A stretch of 64,000 bases of DNA from Deroplatys truncata (taxonomy: Eukaryota; Arthropoda; Insecta; Mantodea; Mantidae). The translations under genes were made by a program, and so were the position numbers. The stretch lies in NCBI GenBank assembly GCA_030765065.1, contig CM060988.1, positions 201,374,565 to 201,438,564 on the forward strand, given 5' to 3'. Positions 16,222 through 58,928 of the stretch are shown piece after piece (the stretch's first letter is position 1; each line of letters begins with the position of its first letter). The notes under the pieces are model-generated. The model was not told where the DNA came from and searched no databases. It saw only the letters and a list, made by a program, of their open reading frames with translations.

Positions 16222-16695
16222 AGAATTAATTGTTCTTTCACACAATCCGTGTGTTGGAAAGGTACAATCAGGCGACTGAAAAATTCAGTGCCATAGCCGG
16301 TATTTGAACCACGGATCTCCCGGTCTCCGTCAGGTTGCTCTAACTACTGAGCTACCATGGCAACATGCCGGCACGTCATTAAATTCTCCAGCTGATTCGC
16401 ATTTTTCCCGGTAAACCACAAGGAGATCTCAAATTGTATTGAGATGTCATACCCCAATGGCGACTTACATTCTTTGTAAGTACTTTAAGTTCCGGGCTTT
16501 ATAGTTTCAACCACTATTAGGTCAATTAATGGGAATTTAATTTACTGGGGAAAATGCGAATCAGTTGGAGAATTTAATGTCGTGTCGGCATGTTGCCATG
16601 GTAGCTCAGTGGTTAGAGCAACCGAGACTGGGAGATCCGTGGTTCAAATCCCGTCTATGGCATTGAATTTTTCAGTCATCTGATTCTACCTTTCC
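16222..16695 (-). mobile_element. Fold-back SINE with two opposed tRNA-like heads, copy 1
   Basis: GGAAAGGTACAATCAG (16257) and CTGATTCTACCTTTCC (16680) form a terminal inverted pair. Each arm then carries the same tRNA-like sequence: box A GTAGCTCAGTGGTTAGAGCA, box B GTGGTTCAAATCC. It is on the minus strand at about 16298-16375 and on the plus strand at about 16591-16665. The loop of about 130 bp contains TTAATTGACCTAATAGTGG on the minus strand. A 13-bp direct repeat AATTATTGTTAAT flanks it (about 16208-16220 and 16697-16709). A second, partly collapsed copy lies at 49443-49776. Confidence 0.72.
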
Positions 16696-31070: not shown

Positions 31071-31216
31071 CTTTAGAAAAATTGTAAGAACAAACCCTTC
31101 TTTAATGTGTCTGTCCCCTTTTGTACACACATGTATATACAATTTGGCATAATGTTTTTTTTTTATATTCTGAAAATGTTAAAGGTAAAAATTTAAAAGT
31201 TTATTATATAGACCTT

Positions 31217-31654
31217 ACGGAGCGAGATGGCTCCGCGGTAACGTGTGAGAAATGCATTCGGGAGGTCCCGGGTTCGATTCCCGGTGGCCGCCGGTTCCTA
31301 ACATGCGTTTTTCGTGGTTTTCCCTCTCTCCCCATTTCCTATAATTTCATTTCCCTATCATGTTTCAGGTCGACTCCGGCAAAGAGGCTTGCGAATTGGA
31401 ACTTCTTCTCGGCCCCGCTAGAGGGAAGCCTGTCTAGCCTCCACTCCTGGGTCGTGTTTTCCCGATCTCACTAGAGGGACCTCTCCGAGCGACCCTCTCG
31501 TGGTCGGGTGGTCAAGCCTGGAACCGTTAGGGAACTCTGTGCATCTCTGTCGACCTGCGCTAGCCTCGCATGTCTCCTGCGGTTCGCGCATCTCATCCAT
31601 TCCTCCCGGAGGTGCAAGCATCGAGATGTAACTGTCCCCTCCCTTAACTAGTCC
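31217..31654 (+). mobile_element. tRNA-derived SINE with perfect 12-bp TSD
   Basis: Flanked by TATATAGACCTT at 31205-31216 and 31655-31666. Head: GAGCGAGATGGCTCCGCGGT (box A) and GGGTTCGATTCCCGG (box B), followed by TTTTTCGTGGTTTTCCC. The later part shares GGAACCGTTAGGGAAC with the SINEs at 35.76 and 43.2 kb. The 12-bp TSD indicates LINE-driven retroposition. Confidence 0.92.
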
Positions 31655-34030: not shown

Positions 34031-34381
34031 AGCGAGAAGAGACCTATGAATCATACTTGCCAATTTTACATCATCCAGCAAAGCATAATAATTGTGCTAT
34101 GACATCTAATTTAAAATGCGTAATATGTTCAGTGAAGTAAATGCACAAAAATTGTATGTAGAATAAATAGGAAACGTATTCACACTTCACTAACGAAAAC
34201 AGATTTCCGGTCCATATTTCACATTTCATATCATCAACTACAAATATAAAGTGTCACAGAACTGGGAAACTTATATCCCGCAGTCATAGAGCGCCAATAT
34301 AACAAACAATTTACTTGAGGGAGTTGACATTGGAATTCACGTCGTCCATTACTGAATGTTCGCGCCGTGATTATCACACGT
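34031..34381. other. Unique flank of the 119-bp array
   Basis: Only 34305-34381 is recognisable, through its similarity to 19695-19770. Confidence 0.45.
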
Positions 34382-35060
34382 CACTAGTGGTGCTATACAT
34401 TTTGTTACAGCCCAGTGAAGAGGGACCATGATCATGATGAAGGATAGACACACAGATAAGCTCTGGTCTATCACAGGACTGTATACCATACACTAGAGGA
34501 CACTAGTGGTGCTATACATTTTGTTACAGCCCAGTGAAGAGGGACCATGATCATGATGAAGGATAGACACACAGATAAGCTCTGGTCTATCATAGCACTG
34601 TATACCATTTACTAGAGGTCACTAGTGGTGATATACATTTTGTTACAGCCCAGTGAAGGGGGACCATGATCATGATGAAGCATAGACACACAGATAAGCT
34701 CTGGTCTATCATAGCACTGTATACCATTTACTAGAGGTCTCTAGTGGTGCTACACATTTTGTTGTAGCCCAGTGAAGGGGGACCATGATCATGATGAAGG
34801 ATAGACACACAGATAAGCTCTGGTCTATCATAGCACTGTATACCATTTACTAGAGGTCTCTAGTGGTGCTATACATTTTGTTGTAGCCCAGTGAAGGGGG
34901 ACCATGATCATGATGAAGGATAGACACACAGATAAGCTCTGGTCTATCATAGCACTGCATACCATTTACTAGAGGTCACTAGTGGTGATATACATTTTGT
35001 TACAGCCCAGCGAAGGGGGGCCATGATCATGATGAAGGATAGACACACAGATATGCTCTA
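34382..35060. repeat. 119-bp tandem repeat, about 5.7 units
   Basis: Units start at CACTAGTGGTG at 34382, 34501, 34620, 34739, 34858 and 34977. Each carries ACCATGATCATGATGAAG, containing the palindrome CATGATCATG, and GATAGACACACAGATAAGC. Units differ by a few substitutions shared between neighbours, indicating recent amplification. Confidence 0.96.
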
Positions 35061-38209: not shown

Positions 38210-38510
38210 TTAGTTCATTGGAACAATTTTCGTGCGATACATATGCAAAAACGGAACCATGTAGAGAATTTTATGAGACATTCCTGGTATTGCAGTTCCA
38301 AATAGTGATGCTGTCAGATGTCTGGTTAACAAGTATAGGACAACGGGATCGCTAAAGACTAAACCTAAGAAGTGAAAAACACAAGTTCTAACGGAGGAAA
38401 AAATTGACGAAATTGGATTCGGACGCTCTCCAAAGAAGTCTCAAAGACGTGTTGCACAGCAAGTGGGTGTTTTAAAAACCTCTGTTCATATAGCTGCTAA
38501 ACTTTTAAAA

Positions 38511-41121
38511 CTTTTTTTCCTCTTTTTCATTTTATGTCGCTTTAACTCCCTGGTCATATCCCGAAGGATCTGTTGGTGGATAATCTTAGAACAATATGTT
38601 ATGGAGTTAGCCTTCTAGGTCTCATCCCTGTAACCACACGCTTCATGCCGTGCAGATGGCATTAGGTGTTGTCCACTCCAACCGCCGCCCTCACACAGAA
38701 AGGCAGACAGTTAGCCCTCTAGGTCTCATCCCTGTAACCACTGCTTCATGCCGTGCAGATGGCAATAGGGTGCCGTCCAGTCTAACCGCCGCCCTCGCAC
38801 AGAAAGGCGGACAGTTAGCCTTCTAGGTCTCATCCCTGTAACCACCTGCTTCATGCCGTGCAGATGGCATTAGGGTGCCGTCCAGTCTAACCGCCGCCCT
38901 CACACAGAAAGCAGACAGTCAGCCCTCTAGGTCTCATCCCTGTAACCACTGATTCATGCCGTCCAGATTGCATTAGGGTGCCGTCCAGTCCAACCGCCGC
39001 CCTCACACAGAAAGGCGGACAGTTAGCCTTCTAGGTCTCATCCCTGTAACCACCTGCTTCATGCCGTGCAGATGGCATTAGGGTGCCGTCCAGTCCAACC
39101 GCCGCCCTCACACAGAAAGGCGGACAGTTAGCCTTCTAGGTCTCATCCCTGTAACCACCTGCTTCATGCCGTGCAGATGGCATTAGGGTGCCGTCCAGTC
39201 CAACCGCTGCCCTCACACAGAAAGGCGGACAGTTAGCCTTCTAGGTCTCATCCCTGTAACCACCTGCTTCATGTCGTGCAGATGGCATTAGGGTGCCGTC
39301 CAGTCTAACCGCCGCCCTCACACAGAGAGGCGGACAGTTAGCCTTCTAGGTCTCATCCCTGTAACCACCTGCTTCATGCCGTGCAGATGGCACTAGGTTG
39401 CCGTCTAGTCCAACCGCCGCCCTCACACAGAAAGGCGGACAGTTAGCCTTCTAGGTCTCATCCCTGAAACCACCTGCTTCATGCCGTGCAGATGGAATTA
39501 GGGTCCCGGCCAGTCTAACCGCCGCCCTCACACAGAAAGGCGGACAGTTAGCCTTCTAGGTCTCATCCCTGTAACCACCTGTTTCATGTCGTGGAGATGG
39601 CATTAGGGTGCCGTCCAGTCCAACCGCCGCCCTCACACAGAAAGGCGGACAGTTAGCCTTCTAGGTCTCATCCCTGTAACCACCTACTTCATGCCGTGCA
39701 GATGGCACTAGGGTGCCGTCCAGTCTAACCGCCGCCCTCACACAGAAAGCAGACAGTCAGCCCTCTAGGTCTCATCCCTTAACCACTGATTCATGCCGTC
39801 CAGATGGCATTAGGGTGCCGTCCAGTCCAACCGCCGCCCTCACACAGAAAGGCGGACAGTTAGCCTTCTAGGTCTCATCCCTGTAACCACCTGCTTCATG
39901 CCGTGCAGATGGCATTAGGGTGCCGTCCAGTCCAACCGCCGCCCTCACACAGAAAGGCGGACAGTTAGCCTTCTAGGTCTCATCCCTGTAACCACCTGCT
40001 TCATGCCGTGCAGATGGCATTAGGGTGCCGTCCAGTCCAACCGCCGCCCTCACACAGAAAGGCGGACAGTTAGCCTTCTAGGTCTCATCCCTGTAACCAC
40101 CTGCTTCATGTCGTGCAGATGGCATTAGGGTGCCGTCCAGTCTAACCGCCGCCCTCACACAGAGAGGCGGACAGTTAGCCTTCTAGGTCTCATCCCTGTA
40201 ACCACCTGCTTCATGCCGTGCAGATGGCACTAGGTTGCCGTCTAGTCCAACCGCCGCCCTCACACAGAAAGGCGGACAGTTAGCCTTCTAGGTCTCATCC
40301 CTGAAACCACCTGCTTCATGCCGTGCAGATGGAATTAGGGTCCCGGCCAGTCTAACCGCCGCCCTCACACAGAAAGGCGGACAGTTAGCCTTCTAGGTCT
40401 CATCCCTGTAACCACCTGTTTCATGTCGTGGAGATGGCATTAGGGTGCCGTCCAGTCCAACCGCCGCCCTCACACAGAAAGGCGGACAGTTAGCCTTCTA
40501 GGTCTCATCCCTGTAACCACCTACTTCATGCCGTGCAGATGGCACTAGGGTGCCGTCCAGTCTAACCGCCGCCCTCAGACAGAAAGATGGACAGTTAGCC
40601 TTCTAGGTCTCATTCCTGTAACCACGTGCTTCATGTCGTGCAGATGGAATTAGGGTGCCGTCCAGTCCAACCGCCGCCCTCACACAGAAAGATGGACAGT
40701 TAGCCTTCTAGGTCTCATCCCTGTAACCACCTACTTCATGCCGTGCAGATGGCATTAGGGTGCCGTCCAGTCCAACCGCCGCCCTCAGACAGAAAGATGG
40801 ACAGCTAGCCTTCTAGGTCTCATCCCTGTAACCACCTGCTTCATGCCGTGCAGATGGTATTAGGGTGCCGTCCAATCTAACTGCTTGCATTGTCTGTATA
40901 TAGATGGCATAGCATTCGCTATTACCACTTATTTTTTCATTTTACTATTGTTTTAGGCTTAAGGTTGAACTTGGGTCGTGGTATTAAATATCCAATATGG
41001 CATTTACCTTGGGGACTGAGGAAAACCATGAAAAAACCTCAGACAAATTGGTCGGACCACGGGATTTGAACCCGCGACCTCCCGGCCACAGACTTTGCCG
41101 CCTGAGCCATCCCGCACGGTC
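38511..41121 (-). mobile_element. Composite SINE-VNTR retroposon, copy 1
   Basis: A 2611-bp unit on the minus strand with a perfect 9-bp TSD CTTTTAAAA (38502-38510 and 41122-41130). Parts in order of transcription: a tRNA-like head with GCGGGATGGCTCAGGCGGCA (box A, about 41095-41115) and CGCGGGTTCAAATCCCG (box B, about 41062-41080). A body follows with GTCTGAGGTTTTTTCATGG and AATACCACGACCC, then about 22 tandem 105-bp units, then a tail CACCAACAGATCC...GGGAGTTAAAGCGACATAAA with an A-rich end. Head, body, VNTR and tail all recur, in order, at 53961-54825. No coding capacity; mobilisation presumably by a LINE, as for SINEs. Confidence 0.9.
38606..40885 (-). repeat. 105-bp VNTR of the composite retroposon, ~22 units
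   Basis: Each unit carries GTTAGCCTTCTAGGTCTCAT, CCACCTGCTTCATGCCGTGC, TAGGGTGCCGTCCAGTC and CCGCCGCCCTCACACAG on the plus strand, repeating every 104-105 bp. Marker variants (CACTAGGTTGCCGTCTAG, CCCTGAAACC, GGGTCCCGGCC, GTTTCATGTCGTGGAG) occur twice, 837 bp apart, giving an eight-unit higher-order repeat. Confidence 0.97.
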
Positions 41122-41382
41122 CTTTTAAAATTGAAACTCCACAGAGTGACATCATAACCCCATGAGGAAAGAAATACCAAAAATGTACCATCTTATAACA
41201 AGGTTAGTACTCGTGCACGTTACTCTTGATTATGTAACGCGGGAGTTTAAGAATGGAAAGCCCCGCCGTCTAGGAGCACACATACACGCGATCCGGGCTA
41301 GACCATAATACTAGTCTTTTGCTTTTTCTGCACCTTAAAAAAACACGCATATTCTGTAGGTTTATTTGGCTGCTAGAATTTT

Positions 41383-41860
41383 AACTTTCTCTACCACATA
41401 CCTATGGTAGTATTGTATTGCACCTACATATTTGCTATCCAGAATCCCGAAATACTTGCTTTGAACCGCTGCGTGTGCGTGTGCTTTCTCAAAAATAGCT
41501 GTAGTGATTTTTATTAAAATACCATACGTTTAAGATATTTTCCTGACAAAATCATAAAGCTTCTACCAAAAGCCTGTGAAATACCTTTTCATTCCGAATG
41601 ACTTTTGTATAACGTTGTTTAATTGGTTAACTTTTACTATAAGACCTGGCAAAAAATTTATCAGTCAGAAAAATGTATGTCGGAAATGACGTATTCGTAT
41701 GAATTTTGCAAGACTCGATAATCTTTTAAAGCGTCAAGTCACCATTCGTTTGTTTCTCGTAATATCATGCAATGAATGGTATTTCAAAGCTAGCATATAC
41801 TGACCCGCATCTATCATTTCAGTCTGTTGTAATCCTCCTGTGCCCACAAAGAAACACAGT
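41383..41860 (+). mobile_element. Family X element, truncated
   Basis: AACTTTCTCTACCACATACC start, ATACCATACGTTTAAGATAT interior. The outer end is missing. Confidence 0.75.
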
Positions 41861-41904
41861 AGCTGCTCGTGAGCATAACGTTTATGATATTGAGTCAGTA
41901 TTTT

Positions 41905-42480
41905 TAACGCTTAAATATCAGTCTAATTATATAAATTAATACCAGCCCGCCTTAAAGCAATATCTGTATGTAATAATATATAAAGTGTACGTAAAAGTCA
42001 TTGTATAATAATGTTATGTTAATGTATTATGTAGTTTAACAATGTAGGAGCTGTGAGAATAGAAGCAAGCTGCTTTCCGTAGCAAACAGAATTACAAAGT
42101 AAAAGTCGATAGTTGGTATCAATGAGGTAACCTTGAGAAAACAATAAATTAGAAAGTTTAATAATGCTAGTAATAATTCTTGGAAAATAATAATGTATTA
42201 TTTAAAACAGTTTTTAAATAGCCAATCAAAAACTAGAAAAAGCTTAAGTTAAATAAAAGTATTATTGGAGTAGGCTTAGCCAATTTGAGACTTGAAATAG
42301 AGGAAATATACAAATTCAGCGGCAGGCGCTACAAGATTGCGTACCCGATCGGTACGATGCAGGTTAGGTGTGAGACATAGAAAATTCATTGCGGTGAGAA
42401 TAATATAAAGTTTACGTGTTAAAAAGTACAATTAACAATAATCTCACAGCTCTACGGTAGGATATATCAGTGAAGTGTTA
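41905..42480 (-). repeat. Inverted partial copy of the 24.5/28.8-kb direct repeat
   Basis: On the minus strand, segments such as ACACTTCACTGATATATCC, TAAACTTTATATTATTCTCA, AAGTCTCAAATTGGC and TACATTATTGTTAAACTACA follow the order of 24870-25430. The first third of the repeat is absent. Confidence 0.72.
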
Positions 42481-42485
42481 TGGCA

Positions 42486-43020
42486 TAGTGTGAAGGCTGG
42501 CATAGGACGACAAGTCGCTCTGATTTCACCAGATATACTGCCAGCTAACTGTCGACCATGTGACGTTTGGTTGTGGGGATATTTGTAAGATCGTGTCTAT
42601 CAGGGACATAAAGGATGGCATAGGACGACATGTCGCTCTGATTTCACCAGATATACTGCCAGCAACTGTCGACCATGTGACGTTTGGTTGTGGGGATATT
42701 TGTAAGATCGTGCCCATCAGGGACATGAAGGATGGCATAGGACATGTCGCTCTGATTTCACCAGATATACTGCCAGCAACTGTCGACCATGTGACGTTTG
42801 GTTGTGGGGATATTTGTAAGATCGTGCCCATCAGGGACATGAAGGATGGCATAGGACATGTCGCTCTGATTTCACCAGATATACTGCCAGCAACTGTCGA
42901 CCATGTGACGTTTGGTTGTGGGGATATTTGTAAGATCGTGTCTATCAGGGACATGAAGGATGGCATACGACATGTCGCTCTGATATGCTGCCAGCAACTG
43001 TCGAATTGGGAGACCTTGTT
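42486..43020. repeat. 114-bp tandem repeat, about 4.5 units
   Basis: CTGTCGACCATGTGACGTTT recurs at about 42550, 42667, 42781 and 42895 (spacing 117, then 114). The last partial unit ends near 43010. The unit is 38 codons long, so the array is open in one frame on each strand: plus 42560-43117 (185 codons, MTFGCGDICKIV unit) and minus 43110-42526 (194 codons, ILQISPQPNVTWSTV unit). Neither repeat peptide resembles a known domain. The non-repetitive start of the minus frame (AWAQEKGIKEQTYDNG) could be an older coding piece, but I cannot support a gene. Confidence 0.9.
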
Positions 43021-43217
43021 GAACAGTGTTTGTAACAACAGTTCCGAATCGCCGTTATCATATGTTTGTTCTTTTATGCCCTTTTCCTGCGCCCATGCCA
43101 TCATGTTCACACCATAATTTCACCTGAAGGTAAGATTTGGAACTAATTATTTTTGGCATAATTCGCGTGTGCCTTGGTTAATCACCGTAACTGTATTTCA
43201 CACACCTACGATCATTA

Positions 43218-43720
43218 ACTGAGCGAGGTGGCGCTGTGGTTGCGTGCGCGACTCCACTTCGGGAGCTCCTGGGTTCGATCCCCGTCGACCATCTTCTGAC
43301 CCATGGGTTTCTCGTGGCTTCCCCCAGGTCGGCAGGAGAATGCTGTGGTTGTTCATCTTGCACCACGGCTCTCCTGGACCTCACTTTCTGCACCCATCAT
43401 CTTCCTTGTCATGTGTTCCAGGGTTGTACGATCAGGCGACAGTGTTCGGCGGTTTGTGTGGGACTGCTCAGTTATGTCCCGCCCCGGGGGTTCAGGTGGC
43501 TTGTGGCTGGACGCGGGCGGCGTAGGATGCGTTTAATCTGGAAACGTTACGGACCCCATTCATGCTTGCTCCCGTCGTCATATAGATCTGGTCTCTCCCC
43601 TCGTATCTCCCTTCCTCCCAGGATCACTGTAGAAGTAAAAAGGGCCGTTACGGCCTACTTGCGGTGTTCTACACCGGTTATGGCAGCACCTCCTTCGTTC
43701 GTACCCTTACACTTTACCTG
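43218..43720 (+). mobile_element. tRNA-derived SINE with 9-bp TSD
   Basis: Flanked by CGATCATTA at 43209-43217 and 43721-43729. GAGCGAGGTGGCGCTGTGGT (box A), TGGGTTCGATCCCCG (box B), CCATGGGTTTCTCGTGGC, CAGTGTTCGGCGG and CTGGAAACGTTACGG match the SINE at 35758-36230. The 222-codon frame inside it is fortuitous. Confidence 0.92.
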
Positions 43721-43764
43721 CGATCATTACAGTCCGTGCCACGCTGAACATCTTCACCCGCTAC

Positions 43765-44249
43765 AAGTAATGTTTGTTTCTTATTATCGCAGGGGACTCG
43801 GCGCTGCCCCAGTGAGGATATTGCACTTATGCCCCACAAGGGGGCGCCCCCAGGAGAGAGGAGACACCGGGAGGCCAGAACCAGGATTGACGACACAGCA
43901 GTGACAGGGTCCCTACAGTCGGACAGGCAACCGGGGACCCCCACCGTACACAGAGGATCCAACATCCCACTCTGAAGTGCGGTCCGTTTAATCCCGCAAC
44001 CAGCCAAAAACCGAGGGACGGAGAAGGTTCCGAGAGAGCATCCTTTTTTGCTGCCACGCCGCACCGAAACACCATCGCCTACACTTCCAACCCCGAAACA
44101 CACCTAACGGCGTGAAAGATGAAACGCCAGTATTTGCCTGAAGACCCGGGAAAGCCGCCGAAAAAACCCATGGGCTATCGACGGGAATCGAACCCGGGAC
44201 CTCCGGATGCGAGTCGCACGTGTTAACAGGGCACCACCTCACTCGGCAG
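43765..44249 (-). mobile_element. tRNA-derived SINE, inverted neighbour
   Basis: Minus strand: CCGAGTGAGGTGGTGCCCTG (box A, about 44225-44247), CCCGGGTTCGATTCCCG (box B, about 44185-44202), CCATGGGTTTTTTCGGCGG. Head resembles 43218; the body diverges. TSD unclear. Confidence 0.82.
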
Positions 44250-44760
44250 AAACAATGTTACTATTTAGTGCAAAAGCTGCTCGAAAAAAGAAATCAGTTG
44301 TACAAGTAACGATAATTTATTTTGTAATCTCTTAGGTTTAATAGAGCTAAAAGTTTATACGTATGATTTATGCTGATTGTTTGGCACCAACGATAATGCT
44401 ACCATAAGCTTGTGAGCAAATAATTAGTACGAATCGCGAAGCCTTGGTTATGACAACGAACGCTAATATTCGCACCTCTGGGCATATAATCAAGATATAT
44501 TCCCGACAGTCGGACACCCATTTCAATTTCCGGGACCTGTGATTGGCTGCTTGACCACGTTACCGGAATTAATTCGCGGATATTACTTCCCGACCACAGT
44601 GCCGGCGCGACGCAGCTTGAGACCAGAATATACCTACAAAACTGCATTTGCTGGAGGCGGCGCTTGGTCGGAAATCTCATTTGTTCCTTTCCCTGCTCAG
44701 GCGTATCCAAACCAATGGAGATAAACTTTCATTACACACAGCAGGTAAACCGACTGTCAG
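44250..44760. other. No recognised feature
   Basis: A 103-codon minus frame (44399-44710) has no recognisable similarity. Confidence 0.45.
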
Positions 44761-44766
44761 ATTTTT

Positions 44767-45562
44767 ACCTTCTCTACTACGTACATGATAGGCAGACAAA
44801 GTATTGCATTCCACCCAAAGGTTCGATACCGACATTTCGTCGGAAATACATGTTTTGAGGTCCCTTAAAATAAAAACAAATCATTTTATAAAAAGGCCCG
44901 CGTGTTGTGAACAGCATAACACAAAAACGAAAAGTCGGATAAATACCAAACTTGGTATTAAGTTCAGTACCTTCCAAAATGGAACACGAAAATTTTCAAG
45001 AAAATCCCCACACACCAAACTACCCTTTAAATGGAAAATTTTCCGAAACTTTTTAATCTTCTAAAAATGGCTCTTAACGATTTTGATTAAAATAATATAT
45101 ATTAAAGATATTTACAAAACAAATAAAATGTATATCATGAATTTTCTAGGAATAGCCTATGAAGTCCTCTTCATTCGGAAGGAATTTTGTACAATCTTGT
45201 ATAACTAGTAAACGTTAAGCCGCAGACGAAAAGAAACTACACGATTTATTTTAACTTTGCCATTTTCGAGATATTCGTTATTAATGGTTCGAATTGCTCA
45301 ATTTTTGTCATTACTTTGTTTCTCAGGATTTTACAAAAAAAAAGTATGGCATTTTAAGGTAGCATATAGCGTCCAGTTGTTAAACATTTGACTATCGCTG
45401 TTCCCTTTGTGTCTATAACGAGATGTGTAATGTAGCTATTTCTGTAAAGGTTTATCGGGAATTAAATAAAGTAGATAGGAAAATAAAACTTTCGAAAGAA
45501 TAGTTTGTATACCCACTAATAAACGATAGAGGGTAGAGAAAGCCATGTGAATGTAAGATCAG
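44767..45562 (+). mobile_element. Family X element, full length
   Basis: 796 bp, from ACCTTCTCTACTACGTAC to GCCATGTGAATGTAAGATCAG. ATTTTT at 44761-44766 and 45563-45568. Confidence 0.9.
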
Positions 45563-45568
45563 ATTTTT

Positions 45569-46060
45569 AAAAAGCGTGTAGCTGTGATGTTTTTGAGATT
45601 CCACGCTCCTTGCATGACCCGAGAAAAAAACGAATAGCGACTTATCACTTGAAAAAAGCATAAATATCTGCAAATTCAAACCAATAACAAAGAATACATA
45701 GGAAATGTTTAATGCTACAAAAAGTTAATGAAGATAAATTCTGTGCTTTAGCGGGATATATATGCTTTGGGAGTAAGCTTTTGTTTATCTCTTACGGTTT
45801 ACGTAAAATTATACAAAACTGTCTCCGAATAAAAACGACTTAACAGGCACTACTCCTAAAGTTTTTAGAACAATTTTTTAGAAAATCTAGCATTTCGAAA
45901 ACTCTTGCATGTAAATGGTAATTTTGGGGGGGGTCGGTTTTTAAAAAGCTTCCTGTCACATCTTTGAAAGACGCTGAACTTATCAGACATTTCGTTCTTT
46001 AGTTATGCTGTTCACAAATATATCTTTTGTTTTTGAATTCAGGGAGGCTGAAAACGGGAT
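45569..46060 (-). mobile_element. Family X element, truncated
   Basis: Opposite orientation, directly adjoining. TTGCATGACCCGAG to CAGGGAGGCTGAAAACG in X order. Both ends worn. Confidence 0.75.
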
Positions 46061-46111
46061 ATATACCGCGATGTGGCCAAGAGGTTAAATGACGTTAGTT
46101 AAACAAAAAAT

Positions 46112-47009
46112 CTGATGTGTTACACTCACATGACTTTCTCTACTCTTCTACAAACTATTTTTACAAACGCTTATTCTCCATCTACTTCATGTTAATCGAG
46201 ATAAACATTTGCAGAGTCTATGTTATTGCTAATTTTCTTGTAGATGTAAGGGGAATATATATTTACAAGGGCAATATAGAAATACAGTAGCCTTTAAGCA
46301 CATACATATCTCTTAATAGCTGGTTGCTAGGTGCAGCACCATTCCCTTTGCCACAGATTAATACTCTTTGCATATCCAAGACAAAAAAATGAATAACGAA
46401 TTCCCATTTGAGAAAATAAGTATTGAAAAACTTAAGGGAATAACAAGCAATATCTCGAAAATGGTTCACTCAACAAAAAAAAAATGTATATGACATAAAT
46501 TGTGTATTTTAACGCAATCTACATTTTTTGTGTTGTACAATTTTGTCTATCTCTTATGGTTTACTAGTTATGCAAAAGTCGTTCACAATGAAGAATACTT
46601 TTGGAGAAATTCCCAAAAAATTCAAGATAAACATTTTATTTGTCATGAAAATATCTTAAAAATATGATATTTTAAACAAAATCGTTAGGGCCATTTTTGA
46701 GAAAATTAAAATTTTCGAAAAATGTTCCATGTAAAGGGTAATCTGGGGTGGGGGATTTTCTTGAAAACCTTCGTGTCGCATCTCTGGAAGGTACTGAACC
46801 TAAATACCAAGTTTGGTGTTTATCCGACTGTTCGTTTCTGAGTTATGCTGTTCACAGAAAGACACATACACACATGACATGTTTCCAAAAATGTTTTTTT
46901 TTTTTGGATTCAGGGGGTCTCAAAACATGTATTTCCGGTGAAATCACGGTATTGAATTTTTGGGTGGAATACAATACTTCCCCTACTTACTCTACGTAGT
47001 AGAGAAAGT
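46112..47009 (-). mobile_element. Family X element, full length
   Basis: 898 bp from CTGATGTGTTACACTCACAT to GTAGTAGAGAAAGT. AAAAAT at 46106-46111 and 47010-47015. Confidence 0.92.
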
Positions 47010-47024
47010 AAAAATTGAAATGTT

Positions 47025-47415
47025 TACTTTCTATATTAACCATAGGTAATAGTTGTGGAAACTTTTATCCCACCCAAAAATTCGTTAAGGAGATTTCGCT
47101 GGAAATTCATGTTTTGGGATCCACCGAACGAACAAAGTATTTTCGAATTTTATAAAACTAACAAACTGTAAAATACACAAAAACTTACGCTAAGTAAGTG
47201 TCTCATCTCTTGAAACTCTGCAATTCTTGTCTCCCCTCCCTTTTCTTTTGTTTTCATCATAAGAGCTTCTTACCAAATGAATAAACATTTGAATGCTGTT
47301 GCTGTAAAAATATATCGCGAGTAACGTAGCTAGGAGAAAAGAATTACCTACTTCTTATATGAATATATGTGAATTTGTAACTGGCAGAGAAAGTCGTGTG
47401 AATGTAACTTTGTGT
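47025..47415 (+). mobile_element. Family X element, internally deleted
   Basis: Start TTTACTTTCTATATTAACC and CCACCCAAAAATTCG; end GCAGAGAAAGTCGTGTGAAT. The middle ~450 bp is missing. Confidence 0.75.
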
Positions 47416-47569
47416 TAAGGAGTTTATTTAGTTCAGAGTAGGCATGCATCTTTACATAGTTCACATTGCTACTATCTAACTCTGATTGTATTCTATCACA
47501 GACAAAACTTTCTCAAACTTCAAGCATTCAACCAACAGCATGTTGCAAATAAATTCCATAAATAAGCGA

Positions 47570-48960
47570 AACACTGACATCAACCGAATTTCCGCGCAAA
47601 GAAAACATTAATGAGAAGTTCCGGTTGATCAACACCGCCAAAGTGTTTTTTCCAAAGCTTCCCATTTGTTGTGCGACCTTCAGGGGAACGTCGTTTCACC
47701 AGCTTCTGTCGGTCTTCGTTACCTTCGACAGTAGGGTGATAATGTGGATGGCTTTCACGTTGGGCTTAGGGATACTGAGTTAGAAGAGAAATAGAACCAT
47801 GGACCTAAATAGGGGACCGGGTCTGCCAACGCAGAGACCACACCCTCGCAAACACAGGAGAAAACTCGTGGGGCTTTCCATTAGGAGCGGTGTCTATTTT
47901 ATATACCGCCCCCCCCTGCCTGGTCGAAATCGGGCAAGGACACCTCCCGCACCGACCCTTCCAGGCAGGGACGGAAGTGGATACGCCACTTACGCGCGTC
48001 AGGCCAGCAGGGCGAACCCTACTGGGGGAGACTACCGAACAACCTCGGTGGGGCCGACAGTTTCTAGCTACCGTCTACCAGCTATCCCTCATGGCTGGTG
48101 CCGGAGATTCTCGAGGCGTTTCACAACCCCGCCTGGGCGGAATTAACATAGCCAGGCGCACCCAATCACCCATGGGTATCGGGAATCACTGCCTCGCCGA
48201 GTTCAACCCAATCCGAACAACTCCCTTTCGGGAGGGGCTCAGATGTTCGGCCCGGCGTACTTCTGGTAACGTCAGAAGTACCACGAGTGCTAAGGGTCCG
48301 CAGCGCCCGCACCACGGCAGCTGAAGGGGTCGGAACCCCCACCCCCTTACGGGGAAAGAGAACCATGGACCACCAACAACAGAGGAAACCACTGAGCAAT
48401 CACAACGCCCCTCAAAATGTTCATCAACAAAACCTCGGTTTGATTAAAACAGGCAAAATGTTAATCCGAATTTTTGTTGATCAACACAGCCAAGACGTTA
48501 ATTAATCCCAATGTTTGTTGATCAACACCGCCAAAATGTTAATCAACACAGCCAACACGTTAATCAATCCGAATGTTTGTTGATCAAGGCCGCCAAAATG
48601 TTAATCAACACACCCAAGAGGTTAATCAATCCAAAGTTTTGTTGATCAACAGTGCCAAAACGTTAATCAACGTAGCCAACACAGTGAAAATATTAATGAA
48701 ACCGAATTTTTATTGATCAACACAGCTAAGACGTTAACAATCCGAATTTTTGGTTAGCAGCACCGTCAAAATTTTAATCAACGTAGTTAACACAGTAAAA
48801 ATATTAATTAAACCCAATTTATGTTGATGAACATCGCCAAAATGTTAATCAAATCGAATTTTTGTTCAACACCAGGAAAATTTAATTAAAACCATCAACA
48901 CAGTCGAAAAGTTGATCAACACGTATTGTTGTTGATAAACGCGTGTACATAGTTTAATAA
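47570..48960. repeat. ~61-bp GTTGATCAAC array flanking a GC-rich block
   Basis: The motif TTGATCAACACCGCCAAA occurs at about 47625. It recurs about every 61 bp from 48470 to 48720, alternating with GTTAATCAA, then decays to 48940. The stretch 47790-48370 between is GC-rich, has no recognisable protein, and carries perfect small hairpins: GTACTTCTG/CAGAAGTAC (48257-48265 with 48273-48281) and CTCCC/GGGAG (48221-48225 with 48230-48234). Confidence 0.7.
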
Positions 48961-49430
48961 TAACGCTAACCGGTGTTGTCGCGCCATCCGATTCAGAAGT
49001 TGTGAACGCCTGTATTGAGAGGAAGCCAGCGGGGGGTGAGCCCCCTCCCATTCCGTCAACGAGGGACGACTTGAGGCTTCAAAAAGGCACGTTTTAACGT
49101 ACTTGGGGCTGTCACTCAGACGTTCGGTACAACGGATGATCCAATAAGATTGTACGATCTGCCTACCTCAGGCGTTTACGAAGATTTATATATCCACTAC
49201 ACGCGGTCGGTCGCATGTCTCACATTCTCTGTCAAGTGTTATTTATTTTCACGTCTGCTATACAATTTATTCATACAAAAGCTTGCTGGTATCAGTGCTC
49301 ATTTTCTAAGAAGTATAAAAATGTGTGCATTTAAAATAACTTTGCAATCACCACACACTGAAAAAGTTGAAAAAATAAATCAGTGCAATTATTACACCAA
49401 TAAAATTAAAATAACAGAACAAGTTAACCA
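48961..49430. other. No recognised feature
   Basis: A 103-codon plus frame from 49150 has no recognisable similarity. Confidence 0.45.
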
Positions 49431-49442
49431 TAATATTGTTTG

Positions 49443-49776
49443 GAAAGGTAGAATCAGATGAGCTGAAAGAAAAGAACTTGTGAAAGAACAATTAATTCCA
49501 TTAATTTACCTAATAGTGGTCGAAACTATGAAGCCTGGGACTTACAACATTGTAAGTCGCTTTGGGGTATGTCATCTCAATACAATTTGAGATCTCCTTG
49601 TGGTTTACCAGGAAACATGCGAATCAGCTGGAGAATTTAATGTCATACCGGTATGTTGCCAGTGGTTAGAGCAACCGGACGGAGACCGGGAGATCCGTGG
49701 TTCAAATCCCGGCTGATTCTACCTTTCCATCCTTGTCCAACACACGGCTTGTATGGAAGAACAATTAATTCCTATA
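49443..49776 (+). mobile_element. Fold-back SINE family, copy 2 (one head)
   Basis: GGAAAGGTAGAATCAG (about 49443) and CTGATTCTACCTTTCC (about 49708) form the terminal pair. The loop TTACCTAATAGTGGTCGAAA, the GCGAATCAGCTGGAGAATTT segment and one tRNA-like head (GTGGTTCAAATCCCGG) match copy 1; the opposed head is missing. ATAATATTGTTT flanks it on both sides (about 49431 and 49777). Confidence 0.75.
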
Positions 49777-49860
49777 ATATTGTTTGTTCTTTCTGCACAT
49801 AAACAATCAGAACATTCTCTCTACTAATTTGGCTGCTACAAAATTCTCAAGTGCAAACAC

Positions 49861-50055
49861 CGACACGAGTAGCGAGACTCGTGAGCGGGAGGTCTGCAGT
49901 TCAAATCCCACAAGGAACGTCCGCGCTGAATGAGGTTTTTCCAGGTTTTTCCTCAATCCTCATAACTGACAACCCTTCTTCCCAAAATTTCATTTCACTT
50001 CATATTTCATCAGTGTATACCGCCTGTGGTGCCGTACTATACACACATTGCATAT
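49861..50055 (+). mobile_element. tRNA-derived SINE
   Basis: Box B GCAGTTCAAATCCC near 49890-49903, then GAGGTTTTTCCAGGTTTTTC and CTCAATCCTC, a body shared by many insect SINEs. Ends near an AATAAACA-like A-rich stretch. Confidence 0.68.
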
Positions 50056-50079
50056 TAAAATAAACATTTTTTCTCCGAT

Positions 50080-50212
50080 AATTTGGCTGCCAGACGAATA
50101 GTTTCTGAGAGTTTATCCTAAGCTGTTGGAGACCTCTCGCATAAAGTGCTTTGGGTACGGTGGACCCAGAAAGTACATCCTCTACCTGCTAAAGATACGT
50201 TGTAGAGAAAGT
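50080..50212 (-). mobile_element. Family X terminal fragment
   Basis: Only the terminus GTTGTAGAGAAAGTAAAATT is clear. Confidence 0.45.
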
Positions 50213-50866
50213 AAAATTAGTGTCCTGATGACCATGGCGTCGCACAGTGTTGCCATGACAACAGACTGGAGCGCGGTAAACAAACCCCTTGAGTACAGTT
50301 ACTGACACAAGAATCAATCACAAACTCTGGACTACACTTACCCCGTAGGCGATATCCATAAGCTGGCCACATCACCGAACACTACAACACACACGTGATG
50401 ATCAACTGTACAAGAGACAGACGCCTGTAAAACAAAACACAAGCAGCACGCGGTGTCTAGCTACTCGCTCGATAACGGAGCGTTGATTCGTCATCGGCAG
50501 TAGGCCCCGGAAGGAGCATTGTGTTGGAGTGGGCTTGTTTTTCCCCCTTCATCGAGGACTGGGTTTGTACCTCGGAGCAGCGTTTCACCACACACAGAAA
50601 AAAAAAGCTTTGTTTCCCCCCCTGCTGTCAGTTTTAACACGAGTGGCGTCACTTAACCACCAGCACCACCTCTGGAGATGGCGTTACAAAACCAATACGT
50701 AGTACCAACTGTAAACATATATCACTGAGCACCTCTTATCATCCGCCGCATCCTTTGACAACTCTAACTTCATTATTTTCTGTCTACACTTCACTTCCTA
50801 GCTCAGTTACCCCCTACAGCATTGCTTCCAAAAATTCGATAGGTATCGCTCTCCAGAATTAAAAAA
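50213..50866. other. No recognised feature
   Basis: No supportable ORF or repeat. Confidence 0.5.
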
Positions 50867-50867
50867 C

Positions 50868-51617
50868 CCGATGTGTTACATTCGTATGACTTTCTCTAAA
50901 AGGGTATCTATCGCCTTGAAGGTTTAAAATTCCAGTATATTAAGCTTTGACAAAATCTAGTCATATTGCAATAAAAATTCTGATGTAACACTCACATGAT
51001 TAATCTCATTAAAGCTTATTTCTATCTACTTCATTTTAATCCAAATAAACCTTTGCAGAAATATCTACATTACACATTTCGTTATAGATACAAAGAGAAC
51101 AGCGATAGTCAAATGTTTAACAACTGGACGCTATATGCTGGTCTTAAAATTCCATACTGTTTCTATGACATCGCTATAAACAACTGAATGTTGACATGAC
51201 TTTACGAGAATGACCAATAAATGAACAATTCGAAACTTTAATAACGGAAACGGCTTATTTTAAATAAATTGTGTATTTTAAAGACATCTACTTTTTTGTG
51301 TAGTACGTTATTGTCTGTCGCTTAATGTTTAGCGGTTATACAAGATTATACCCAATTTCTTAAAAAATGGAGTGTATTTCACAGGCTATTCTTAGAAAAT
51401 TCAAGATATGCACTTTTATATGTTGTGTAAATATGTGTATTTAATAGGCATATCGTATTTTAATCAAAGTGGTGCAGCCAGTTTTTCAGAAAATAAAAAA
51501 TAACGAAAAAATTTCCATGTAGAGGGTTGTTTGGTATGGGGGAATTTTCTTGAAAAGCCTTTTTCTAAAAATTATTTTTTGGTTCAAGGAGCCTCAAAAC
51601 ATGAAATCTCTGTATCC
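50868..51617 (-). mobile_element. Family X element, worn, with duplicated outer end
   Basis: GATGTGTTACATTCGTATGA (50869) is followed by a second outer end CTGATGTAACACTCACATGA (about 50980), then X sequence to ATGAAATCTCTGTATCC. It abuts the next copy head-to-head. Confidence 0.75.
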
Positions 51618-51623
51618 ATTTTT

Positions 51624-51751
51624 ACTTTCTCTACCATGTATAGTAAGTAGGGGAAGTATTGTATTCCACCCAAAAATTCGATACCGAAATTTCACCGGAA
51701 ATACATGTTTTGAGATCCCCTGAATCTAAAAAAAAGCATTTTTGAAACATG

Positions 51752-51782
<31 letters not shown>

Positions 51783-52518
51783 CTGTGAACAGCATAACTC
51801 AGAAACGAACAGTCGGATAACACCAAACTTGGTATTTAGGTTCAGTATCTTCCAGAGATGCGACACGAAGGTTTTCAAGAAAATCCCCCCACCCCAGATT
51901 ACCCTTTACATGGAACATTTTTCGAAAATTTTAATTTTCTCAAAAATGGCTCTAACGAATTTGATTAAAACATCACATGTTTAAGATATTTTCATGACAA
52001 ATAAAATTATCTTGAATTTTCTGGGAATGTCTCCAAAAGTATTCTTCATTGTGAACGACTTTTGCAAAACTGGTAAACCATAAGAGATAGACAAAATTTT
52101 ACTACACAAAAAATGTAGATCGCGTTAAAATACACAATTTATGTCATATACATTTTTTGTTGTTGAGTGAACCATTTTCGAGATATTGCTTGTTATTCCC
52201 TTAAAATTTTCAATACTTATTTTCTAAAATGGGAATTCGTTATTCATTTTTTGTCTTGGATATGCAAAGAGTATTAATCTGTGGCAAAGGGAATGGTGCT
52301 GCACCTAGCAACTAGCTATTAAGAGATATGTATGTGCTTAAAGGCTACTGTATTTCTATATTGTCCTTGTAAATATATATTCCCCTTACATGTACAAGAA
52401 AATTAGTAATAAGATAGTCTGCAAATGTTTATCTCGATTAACATGAAGATGGAGAATAAGCGTTTGTAAAAATAGTTTGTACAAGAGTAGAGAAAGTCAT
52501 GTGAGTGTAACACATCAG
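51624..52518 (+). mobile_element. Family X element, full length
   Basis: 895 bp from ACTTTCTCTACCATGTATAG to AGTGTAACACATCAG. ATTTTT at 51618-51623 and 52519-52524. Confidence 0.92.
51755..51782. repeat. (GT)n microsatellite within family X
   Basis: About 14 GT units at a place where other X copies carry CACACA or TGTGTG of varying length. Confidence 0.93.
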
Positions 52519-52578
52519 ATTTTTTTTTGTTGGAATACAATAACTCACTGTAAGTACGTAGTAAACTAAGAAAAAAAA

Positions 52579-52675
52579 ACCTGATGTGTTACATTCACAT
52601 GACTTTTCTACAAACTACTTTTATATAACCTTAACTTTCTACCTCCTTCATACTATCGATAGCTTTAAAGCATAG
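52579..52675 (-). mobile_element. Family X outer-end fragment
   Basis: CTGATGTGTTACATTCACAT followed by about 70 bp of X, then unrelated sequence. Confidence 0.7.
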
Positions 52676-53526
52676 TACTCAAAAACTAATCAGTTTTTTT
52701 TTCCTCCTACATTCATTTTTTTTATTCGCATAATGTCTGCTTCGATTCCACTAAGGATCTAGGAAGCCTATTCTCACGCTGCGTTATTGGTGGTTGGTAC
52801 CAACTGCAAAAATGGCGATATTTGGTGATCTACGAATTCAAAATCTAAAAGAAGTGGTACAAGATCTAGCGCCACATAATACGAGCAATGCAGTAAAAAA
52901 CATGGCATCGTTCTCCCATTATAATTATCTTACCGAATTGTTTATAATTTTTCTTACGTAACTTAATTGAGCTTTCAAACTCATTCTTGTCATTTCACAA
53001 TTATTTCGAGGCCTTACAAAGGTTCATTAACCTTAATTAAATTACCGTAAAACTATCAGTACTTGCGGTATGACTGAAGAGTGTCTGCTTGTACCTGTAC
53101 CATTGGATCAACCTGAATAAAACCCTAAAAATTGTAGTTTTCATACAGCTTCCAAAAAGCACCCTATACTTATTTTCAAACCCTTACAGAATACATATGT
53201 TCAACGTTCTCTAATACAGTATTCCATAAAATAAGTTTCATCTGTGCCAACATGCCCAGGAACTCACCAATTTCCAACAGCAATTTAGCTTAACAGCGAT
53301 GCCAGATCGGTATCATTATCGTCAAGACGTGACAACATGGTTGTGTAACGTGTGGCATTCTACCATCCCCCTCCCCTGTCTCTGTTTCTCCCCCTACTTC
53401 CGGCAGAGTAGCCTACATACAGGCGTACCATTTCATAGTTCCGTGCTTCATTGTTCCTTTCTTCTTCTCTAACATCAGTCGCAATTACAAACAGGACCAA
53501 AACTTCTAATGTAGGAAAGCAACACA
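52676..53526. other. No recognised feature
   Basis: No coding or repeat evidence in 0.85 kb. Confidence 0.5.
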
Positions 53527-53528
53527 TA

Positions 53529-53568
<40 letters not shown>

Positions 53569-53570
53569 TT
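53527..53570. repeat. (AAT)n microsatellite
   Basis: About 14 AAT/TAA units. Confidence 0.96.
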
Positions 53571-53960
53571 TATGTACATTTTCTTACATTCGCTACACTC
53601 CACCGCCATTCTTTATCCACTCTTCAACTATTGTTAAGAAAGCCTATTTTTCTATCTACTTCATGTTATTCGAGATAAACGTTCACATAAATTAGTTTCA
53701 TTACACCTTTCGTTATCGGTACTAGAGAGGTACAGGAAACACAAACGATAGTCAAATGTTTAACACGCGGCTGGCCATATACTGACTTTGAAAGTCCACA
53801 CTCTTGCTGTTATACAAGAAACAAAAGAATAATGACTTAGGATGTCAAATGAGTATAAAAGAATTTGAAGACTCAATCCAATAAAAACGAATATCTCGGA
53901 AACGGTTAACGCCATAGCACTTTTATTTGACTAATTATGTGCTTAAACAAGATATACATA

Positions 53961-54825
53961 ACCGAGCGGGATGACTCAGGTGGTAAATTTGTGGCCCGCA
54001 TTCCGGAGGTCCCGGGTTCAAATCCCGTGGACCGGCCAATCTGTCTGAGGTTTTTTCGTGGTTTTCCTCAATCGCCAAAGTAAATACTGGATTGGATATT
54101 AATACCACGACCCAAAGTTCCACCTTAAGTCTAAAACAACAGTAAAATGAAAAATAAGTGGTAACAGCGAATGCTATGCCATCTATCTACAGACAATGTA
54201 AGCAGTTAGACTGGACGGCACCCTAACGCCATCTGCGCGTCACGAAGCAAGATGACATTTCCAGGGATGAAACCTAGAAGACTAACTGTCCGCCTCTGTG
54301 TGAGGGTGGCGGTTAGACTGGACGGTATACCCTAATGCCATCTACACGGCATGAAGCAGGTGGTTACAGGGATGAGACCTAGAAGGCTAACTGTCCGTCT
54401 TTCTGTGTGAGGGCGGCGGTTGGACTGGACGGCACCCTAATGCCATCTACACGGCATGAAGCAGGTGGTTACAGGGATGAAACCTAGAAGACTAACTGTC
54501 CGCCTCTGTGTGAGGGTGGCGGTTAGACTGGACGGTATACCCTAATGCCATCTACACGGCATGAAGCAGGTGGTTACAGGGATGAGACCTAGAAGGCTAA
54601 CTGTCCGCCTTTCTGTGTGAGGGCGGCGGTTGGACTGCACGGCACGAAGCAAAAGATTCGGTAGCTATGCGCTAGGGTCCCTGTGACACGTGACAGAACG
54701 AGTGGTTAGAGTGATGAGACCTAGAAGCCTAACTGTCAAGAGTTATTCACCAACAGATCCGTCGCGATAGACCAAGGAGTTAAAGCGACGTAAAAAAAAT
54801 AGTTTAAAAAATATATATATATATA
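53961..54825 (+). mobile_element. Composite SINE-VNTR retroposon, copy 2
   Basis: Begins ACCGAGCGGGATGACTCAGG (box A) and CCCGGGTTCAAATCCCG (box B). Body GTCTGAGGTTTTTTCGTGG, AATACCACGACCC, GAATGCTATGCCATCTAT matches copy 1. About five 105-bp units (54190-54745) follow, then the shared tail CACCAACAGATCCGTCGCG, GGAGTTAAAGCGACGTAAAA and an A/T-rich end. Imperfect flanking GATATAC/TATATAC fits a TSD within the host X element. Confidence 0.87.
54190..54745 (+). repeat. 105-bp VNTR of composite copy 2, about 5 units
   Basis: Units alternate between two types (AAACCTAGAAGACTAAC and GAGACCTAGAAGGCTAAC), giving a dimer of about 212 bp. They are reverse complements of the 38.6-40.9 kb units in window coordinates. 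Confidence 0.94.
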
Positions 54826-57657: not shown

Positions 57658-58928
57658 CGAGGCGTGTTCCAAAATTAAGGTCCGGTGAACAATATTTAAC
57701 GGATGGTAAGCCTGAACGACGTTTCACGACTGCAGCGCTGTCTACCGACTCATGAGAAACCTACCGCAGTGTTGGTGTGACACAGTAGGCGTTTGCTAGT
57801 CGGTGAGAGCAGTTCGCAATGTCCGCGACAGTTGTAGATCCCGCCAGTTGTGAAGTGCGCGGTGTGATTACCATTGTGAGTTGTGCCTCATGTATGGATC
57901 GGACATAATCAGTGACAAACAGGTTCAACACTGGTGGAAATTCGAAATGGCCGCACAAATGTACACATGAAAGCGGAGTGGCAGGCCCCGTATTTGGACC
58001 GACGACATCCTTGAGGAAGTGAACCAAAGATTTCGAAGTGATCGGCGTTTGACGATTGGTGGTCTGGCCGATGAATTCCCAAATGTTGCTCGAACCTCAC
58101 TTTACAGGATTGTCACTGAACACCTTGGGTATCGGAAACTTTGTGCGAGGTGGATGCCAAAACTGCTCAGCACAAAGAGCAACGAATGCGTAGTGCACGA
58201 CAGTTTTTGGAGCGCTATAGACAAGATGGAGATGGTTTGTTTTCCCAAATTGTTACGGGCGACGAGACATGGATAGCGTAGAACAACGCTGAATCGAAAC
58301 AGTCAATGCAGTGGCGCCGTTCCGGTCCACCCAAACCAAAAAAAGTGTAAGCAATCGCCGTACACGAATCGCAAAATGATGGCTACCGTGTTTTGGGACG
58401 AAAAGGACGTCGTTTTGATTGATTTCATGGACCGTGGGTCAACAATTACAGCTGACGTGCACTGTCAAACGCTTACCAAACTGAGACGTGCGATCCAAAA
58501 TCGACGTCGCAGGAAACTGTCGTCTGGCATCATCCTCCTGCACGACAACGCACGCTCGCACACTGCTGCAAAAACCAAGGAGAAGATTCAAAAGTTTCTT
58601 TGGGAACACTCTGACCACTCTCCGTACAGTCCCGACCTGGCACCAAGCGACTATTTCCTCTTCTTGCATTTGAAACGGTGGCGAGTGGACAACAATTTCA
58701 AACCGACGATGAACTCAAGACGAGGTTCAAGTCCCAGGCGGCAGACTTCTATGCCGAGGGGATAAAGAAGTGGTGCAGCCTTACAGCAAGTGTATAGATG
58801 TGAACGGCGATTATGTGGAAACGTAAAGTATATATGTAGGCACATATTACTGTCAATAAAAACCTTATCTCATGAGCGACCTTGTTGTTATTATGAGCAA
58901 ACGGACCTTAGTTTTGGAATACGCCGAG
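57658..58928 (+). mobile_element. Mariner element with TA target duplication
   Basis: 1271 bp with TA at 57656-57657 and 58929-58930. TIRs of about 28 bp: left CGAGGCGTGTTCCAAAATTA, right (reverse complement) CTCGGCGTATTCCAAAACTA. Confidence 0.94.
57820..58765 (+). pseudogene. Mariner transposase pseudogene (DD34D)
   Basis: The likely start is ATG 57820, but the N-terminal third is frameshifted. 58019-58276 reads RLTIGGLADEFPNVARTSLY (second HTH) and ARWMPKLLS. The first motif IVTGDETWIA (about 58245-58277) is in another frame and followed by a stop. 58376-58765 reads MATVFWDEKDVVLIDF, ILLHDNARSHTA (second Asp) and YSPDLAPSDYFLF (third Asp) with exactly 34 residues between. All three Asp codons survive, but stops and frameshifts make it inactive. 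Different mariner lineage from 13467-14680, judging by TIRs. Confidence 0.92.

Follow-up and report, generated by a model that had tools for sequence, protein, structure and literature searches.

A tRNA-headed SINE of the mantis Deroplatys truncata that seems to seed satellite DNA from its own core

A 64,000-nucleotide stretch of the genome of the mantis Deroplatys truncata (GenBank assembly GCA_030765065.1, contig CM060988.1, positions 201,374,565 to 201,438,564 of the forward strand; hereafter the window) holds two copies of one family of short interspersed elements (SINEs), in which a tRNA-like head and a body are followed by a variable number of core units and a tail. This was determined by reading of the sequence, Tandem Repeats Finder (TRF) and blastn. 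Copy 1 extends on the minus strand from 41120 to 38511 and has 22 units; copy 2 extends on the plus strand from 53961 to approximately 54825 and has five. An earlier note on this DNA had described two loci on opposite strands with a common order of head, body, array and tail and about 22 and about five units, and the counts, TRF and blastn agree with it. The note had also described the array as a satellite carried inside an SVA-like element. The repeated unit is instead a piece of the SINE itself; the SINE seems to seed satellite DNA, and the arrays probably lengthen after landing. It is considered probable that the core of this tRNA-headed SINE is prone to tandem amplification, short copies being inserted, arrays growing in place and the long ones lying in outer chromosome regions.

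The assembly that contains the window (4.29 Gb) was searched with the head and body of copy 1, yielding 2668 first-look candidates; 40 of these were scored, of which 30 were fetched. The tail on its own gave 682 candidates; here too 40 were scored and 30 loci fetched, including two that the head and body had already found, while two units as query gave 376 candidates, of which 40 were scored and 30 stretches obtained, representing 26 distinct loci. Exact 30-mer patterns were counted across the whole assembly with the reversed patterns as control: 947 body-core junctions, 3555 unit-unit junctions and 1028 tails were found, and each reversed pattern gave zero.

The one-core SINE is approximately 416 bp long and comprises a head of 78 bp, a body of 168 bp, a core of 84 bp and a tail of 86 bp; this short basic element has a (TAAAA)-like A-rich 3' end. 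A majority sequence of 416 bp was derived from 14 copies (13 one-core copies and L003), which deviate from it by 2.2-6.4%; L003 was scored as one-core, yet its first unit is longer and its total approximately 615 bp. Single cores were present in six of the 30 fetched head-and-body copies (L006, L009, L018, L020, L026 and L030). In multi-unit copies the 84-bp core together with a linker of approximately 21 bp forms the repeated unit of approximately 105 bp, and the final core joins the tail directly. Because one-core copies exist and multi-unit copies have this core-linker structure, the repeated 105-bp stretch is part of the element, consisting of the SINE's own core plus the linker. The likeness to the hominid SVA retroposon drawn in the earlier note therefore needs correcting: a central variable number tandem repeat (VNTR) does lie between different 5' and 3' domains, but the parts are not unrelated and, as the single-core copies demonstrate, the VNTR is not always present. 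The proposed tRNA-derived head with A and B boxes held in so far as the head is tRNA-like and carries box-like motifs, judged against the usual consensus of these boxes; the Rfam tRNA model gave no match in either window head, and at thresholds of up to E = 1 it did not match the L009 head either.

Unit numbers were tabulated for 55 placed, non-redundant copies found by head and body or by tail, the query being excluded. Dropped from this set were L001, L002 (on a small contig), L023 (as a duplicate of L022) and two tail hits that the head-and-body set already contained. One unit was counted in 17 copies, two in 21, three or four in nine and at least five in eight, with counts accurate to about one unit and two counting rules disagreeing in some copies. 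L022 (contig C15, 43.3 Mb) and L023 (C15, 29.9 Mb) hold the same SINE copy with near-identical flanks 13 Mb apart, and are a segmental duplication or an assembly duplicate. Long first units of 141-192 bp occurred in 16 of the 28 loci with at least three units, and units of 103-105 bp in L027, L050 and L051. The middle units of L011 (contig C3, 11.64 Mb) measure 88 bp and have a linker of their own, its last units being ordinary; they are a separate local amplification.

Head, body and core stood in the same order in all 30 fetched head-and-body hits, and the tail lay within the fetched stretch in 28, the exceptions being L001, the query locus, with its tail in the window, and L011, where extension found the tail. 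Among the 30 tail-found loci, core, body and head were located upstream in 28, including L032, in which approximately 1.1 kb of other sequence lies between cores; L041 starts at the core, and the array of L051 ran beyond the fetched stretch until extension reached body and head. The 26 unit-found loci at first included 13 with both body and tail (one of them, L070, having a body and no head), eight cut by the limits of the stretch and five without one end, namely L068, L077 and L084 (no body) and L074 and L080 (no tail). Nine open array ends were extended and eight terminate in SINE sequence: L051, L064 and L066 reach body and head, and L065, L082, L088, L089 and L011 reach the tail, while L090 was still array at approximately 40 units. 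After extension, 19 of the 26 distinct array loci had the body on one side and the tail on the other; in L090 and L076 no end was reached. At many loci, then, a 105-bp array separates head or body from tail, as had been anticipated, and among the fetched loci head and tail were not found independently of each other, nor did the arrays exist mainly as free satellite. That an ordinary dispersed satellite happens to lie beside SINE pieces could be argued from the abundance of units, unit-unit junctions outnumbering body-core junctions in the assembly-wide counts, and from the one-ended arrays. Against this, the unit belongs to the one-core SINE and no fetched array was without any SINE end, except L076, whose ends were not reached, and a chance association is regarded as extremely improbable.

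Evidence of retroposition was sought in the flanks of 51 copies with head and tail, a set to which window copy 1 does not belong. In 21 of these the two flanks matched exactly over 10 bp or more, compared with 0.6% of mispaired flanks, and in 32 over 8 bp or more, compared with 7%, which bears out the expectation of target-site duplications. Clear 13-bp repeats flank L030 (one unit), L014 (seven units) and L067 (five units); a few shorter matches (L003, L027) sit in the A-rich tail itself. The 9-bp repeat reported for window copy 1, TTTTAAAAG, is indeed present on both sides, though AT-rich, and the flanks of copy 2 share a 6-bp match only. Target-primed reverse transcription would be the route of insertion for copies that hold one to about three cores. 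The flank duplications themselves are observed; the enzyme would be encoded by a long interspersed element (LINE), possibly one that recognises the 3' hairpin.

The hairpin in question is a six-pair stem in the family tail before the A-rich end (64 nt, z -3.3, with 2 of 200 shuffles as good). LINEs of the stringent type recognise 3' stem-loops of such a kind, according to the text available in PMC5135761. Constraint on the hairpin after insertion was considered and rejected: across 46 tails, substitutions per site amounted to 0.055 in the stem, 0.047 in the loop and 0.060 in the surroundings, so that the stem was kept no better than its surroundings. Of 264 stem-pair cells in these tails, 236 were unchanged, nine changed yet paired and 19 broken. 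The exact hairpin preceded by a non-SINE 4-mer gave ten hits, six reading AGAT, like the SINE minus one base, and four unclassified. A run of six T residues lies 13 nt past the head in the majority sequence, and 62 of 72 copies have a run of at least five T within the first 45 nt of the body.

Comparison of individual units indicated how the arrays may have grown. The nearest relative of an inner unit was in its own locus for 69% of 382 units from 28 loci; in the extreme case, L027, units differed by 0.6% within the locus and by 9.9% between loci. The edges behaved differently, first units being common by position across loci in 14 of the 28 and last units in 16, where approximately 3.3 would be expected. 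Since edge units are common across loci and inner units private, short forms would have retroposed and the middle grown later; what retroposes appears to be short, with one to about three units, and long arrays look locally grown. The earlier proposal that the whole composite moved as one accordingly fits copies of that short size, for which the common edge units speak, and not the long arrays, which are private and contain block duplications made in place. Window copy 1 contains an 837-bp duplication of eight units, with 95-100% identity over seven 105-bp steps where neighbouring units differ by 1-10%; mean unit distance dips at lag 8 (0.035 versus 0.056-0.074). This block duplication is recent. 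Signals of the same type were detected at lag 6 in L051 (0.009) and lag 9 in L083 (0.056), and the long first-type unit was found inside the arrays of L086 and L076.

Blocks of this size (approximately 600-950 bp) exceed the roughly 200 bp given for replication slippage in the available text of PMC4432496, and we therefore favour unequal exchange or break-induced copying over slippage as their origin. Slippage driven by a hairpin in the unit was also tried and rejected as too weak, the 105-nt unit giving z -1.95 as RNA and -1.18 as DNA (-0.40 for the other strand) and the core alone -0.77. After insertion, then, the middle of the array would lengthen at the DNA level, and become more uniform, as single units or blocks of up to approximately nine units are duplicated, unequal exchange being the simplest route. 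The SINE ends and the unit at either edge of the array would stay as inherited.

Alternatively, as in SVA, RNAs that already contain long arrays might retropose, with length being set in the source or during reverse transcription. L014 and L067, with seven and five units, carry 13-bp flank repeats; first and last units are inherited; the units of some loci are closest to those of other loci; and L068, L077 and L084, without body and head, still hold 8-16 units and the tail. All of these speak for such a vehicle. Yet no unit order was common to loci among 33 loci with at least five units each (528 pairs), a number of loci small enough for rare movements of long forms to escape; the best in-register match had z -3.3 against shuffled order, which may arise by chance given 528 tests. 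Near-identical units are private, as in L027, and block duplications are confined to single loci. Movement of ready-made long arrays is accordingly held to be unlikely. The head-and-body tree of 75 copies was star-like, with 60 of its 72 inner branches open and none of them starred, and the 27 copies with at least five units were scattered on it, requiring 20 changes where the shuffled mean was 22 (92 of 500 shuffles as low). As far as head and body sequences can tell, the long arrays are not one lineage on that tree.

Loci found by the unit were concentrated towards chromosome ends, 37 of 39 lying within 20% of the nearer contig end, where a uniform distribution would place 40% (Kolmogorov-Smirnov p 2e-13). 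The same outer zone held 15 of 40 tail-found copies and 22 of 39 head-and-body-found copies (one small-contig copy dropped). A second unit type gave 27 of 35, or 25 of 32 after removal of the query locus and two loci common to the first set. On contig C1, among the matches listed (100 junctions), 96 unit-unit junctions at 36 loci, 19 with at least two junctions, lay between 16 and 56 Mb, and four junctions at four loci, none with two or more, between 56 and 85 Mb; body-core plus tail marks numbered 31 and 16 in the respective intervals. For loci with at least two junctions the difference between inner and outer parts had Fisher p 0.003, with a boundary chosen after seeing the data. Body-core marks on C1 were mildly enriched in outer parts (51% of 91 within 20% of an end). 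The exact body-core junction was absent from 0-16 Mb and 321-339 Mb of C1, though frequent just inside, and none of three exact patterns had a match in the first 16 Mb; the enrichment is therefore outer rather than terminal, and the ends of C1 may be blocks of other repeats. Contig C16 (707 Mb) contributed 0 of 39, 0 of 40 and 2 of 39 in the three lists, which contain chosen candidates only, and no scarcity is claimed for it.

Long arrays are thus found mostly in outer chromosome parts, presumably where exchange is frequent. A different explanation is that arrays grow equally everywhere, and that long ones are merely retained longer in outer regions by weaker selection or fewer deletions. The unrelated 114-bp array family of the window is also outer-enriched (18 of 25 among the matches listed), so the pattern is not specific to the SINE, and in this genome position probably affects tandem arrays in general. 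Nothing decisive speaks against longer retention, as near-identical units and blocks show recent growth and not its rate by region; we consider it a real possibility, if clearly short of probable.

Insertion of short copies and subsequent growth in place would produce a graded series, from an ordinary SINE to a SINE-bordered satellite of approximately 40 units or more. Several observations weigh against this account. In copies not chosen by the unit, unit number was weakly related to position (rho -0.25, p 0.06, n=55). Longer arrays were no more homogeneous than shorter ones (unit number versus within-locus distance, rho 0.30, p 0.12, 28 loci), and for units of L063, L068, L064, L073 and L082 the nearest relative often lies at another locus. 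One SINE end is missing from 5 of 26 arrays. The long-array loci L073, L075, L086 and L087, each of five units or more, lack a clear flank repeat, and several short copies in the 51-copy test likewise had none. No partner LINE was found with the exact-hairpin pattern, though such a pattern could miss a LINE. RNA polymerase III would be expected to terminate at the T6 run of the body. Lastly, we infer growth in place from unit comparisons within a single genome.

The closest precedent is provided by the SINE-derived satellites (sSats) of squamates. In the available text of PMC10702118 these are alike in that the unit is a portion of a SINE, the number of units ranges from few to very many, the edge units continue into the SINE, unit variants alternate in long loci, and there is a subtelomeric preference that is stronger with length. 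They differ in host group, in that usually one SINE end extends and both do so only in minor variants, whereas both do here in 19 of 26 loci, and in a homogeneity that rises with length, for which no rise was seen here. The SVA, LAVA, PVA and FVA elements of hominoids, as presented in the portion of PMC4432496 available, share non-long terminal repeat (non-LTR) retroposition, a central tandem array, edge units that are kept and remodelling at the DNA level; they join unrelated parts, whereas the present array is the SINE core and one-core copies exist, and their slippage blocks are smaller than the duplications found here. In 2015 the VNTR composites were, to the authors of that paper, the sole known non-LTR retrotransposons with complex internal tandem repeats. 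In EhSINE1 of Entamoeba histolytica, too, the number of internal repeats varies, and copies of this SINE are classed by it; the accessible part of PMC2996970 gives one to four repeats of 26-27 nt, compared with up to approximately 40 units of 105 bp here. Satellites from the tRNA-related parts of SINEs in the salamander genus Hydromantes and in Xenopus, and HzSINE1 microsatellites, are cases of SINE pieces made tandem that are listed in a table of PMC9659126, the rows of which do not state whether SINE borders are kept; because of these entries, SINE-derived satellites as such are not new.

The tRNA-derived SINEs of insects (HaSE, PMC3272025; Blattella, PMC9191728; lepidopteran, PMC8010984) resemble the present family in head, body, short tail repeat and target-site duplications, the comparison being one of descriptions, not of sequences. 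No internal arrays are described for HaSE and the lepidopteran SINEs in the available texts, in which 'tandem repeat' and 'tandem', respectively, occur 0 times, and the corresponding text on Blattella gives microsatellites in the tail only. No insect SINE with long internal arrays was found in the open-licence literature of PubMed Central, a scope that leaves aside subscription journals, preprints and repeat databases.

By TRF, the array of copy 1 comprises 21.8 copies of a 105-bp period with 93% matches, and that of copy 2 comprises 4.2 copies of 105 bp (86%) or 2.1 copies of a 210-bp period (93%). The parts of both copies are given in Table 1.

Table 1. Parts of the two SINE copies and the flank repeats of copy 1, in window coordinates
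Feature	Position	Strand	Basis or remark
Copy 1, 5' flank repeat TTTTAAAAG, putative target-site duplication	41122..41130	-	9 bp, AT-rich
Copy 1, tRNA-like head with A- and B-box-like motifs (B box 41072-41062)	41050..41120	-	blastn 86% to L009 head
Copy 1, SINE body (T6 run 41036-41031)	40882..41049	-	blastn 90%, 169 columns
Copy 1, array of 22 core units of ~105 bp, with 837-bp eight-unit block duplication inside	38605..40881	-	TRF, unit comparison
Copy 1, SINE tail, hairpin stem partly mutated; A-rich end down to 38511	38521..38599	-	blastn 89%
Copy 1, 3' flank repeat TTTTAAAAG	38502..38510	-	9 bp, read from sequence
Copy 2, tRNA-like head (B box 54015-54025)	53961..54037	+	blastn 90%
Copy 2, SINE body (T6 run 54051-54056)	54038..54204	+	blastn 93%
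Copy 2, array of 5 core units of ~105 bp; 210-bp period stronger, last unit longer	54205..54737	+	TRF, blastn
Copy 2, SINE tail (to 54808), hairpin CGTCGC...GCGACG 54760-54790; A/T-rich end to ~54825	54738..54825	+	blastn 92%

Other repeats and open frames were noted in the window. The 114-bp array (42491-42984, 4.3 copies) is open on both strands over approximately 197 codons, and its family recurs in at least 25 places, on the same or other chromosomes, which for the most part lie in outer regions. A 119-bp array of 5.7 copies with 95% identity (34380-35059) is separate from the SINE. Other tRNA-like SINE heads are located at 31210-31330 and 49687-49960. The former stretch matches 16 bp of the family's body exactly, in the GT-rich motif that follows the head, so that the genome may contain further SINE families related to this one. 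At 16289-16361 (minus) and 16595-16662 (plus) lie two divergently oriented Rfam tRNA matches, which are alike and also resemble a stretch at 49650; they are probably another tRNA-headed repeat. Three open frames encode transposase domains: HTH_Tnp_Tc3_2 and DDE_3 (26474-27655, minus), Transposase_1 (58277-58765, plus) and a DUF4817 helix-turn-helix (62103-63191, plus).

Finished arrays are the usual basis for inferring how satellites originate. In this family the starting copy, with one core, known borders and a target-site duplication, and all stages up to approximately 40 units coexist with many replicates in one genome, and block size, growth and dependence on chromosome position thus become measurable. 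Tentatively, and with somewhat less than even confidence, the SINE may be a standing vehicle that sows satellites: sources with two or three cores would be dispersed, each outer landing would grow independently, and the SINE ends would serve as fixed borders. If that is true, a single genome records the birth of satellites many times over, in dated replicates that range from one core to tens of units. The available text of PMC10702118 leaves open whether SINE-derived satellites of this type occur in squamates alone; the present family would be a clear non-squamate case, usually with both borders kept.

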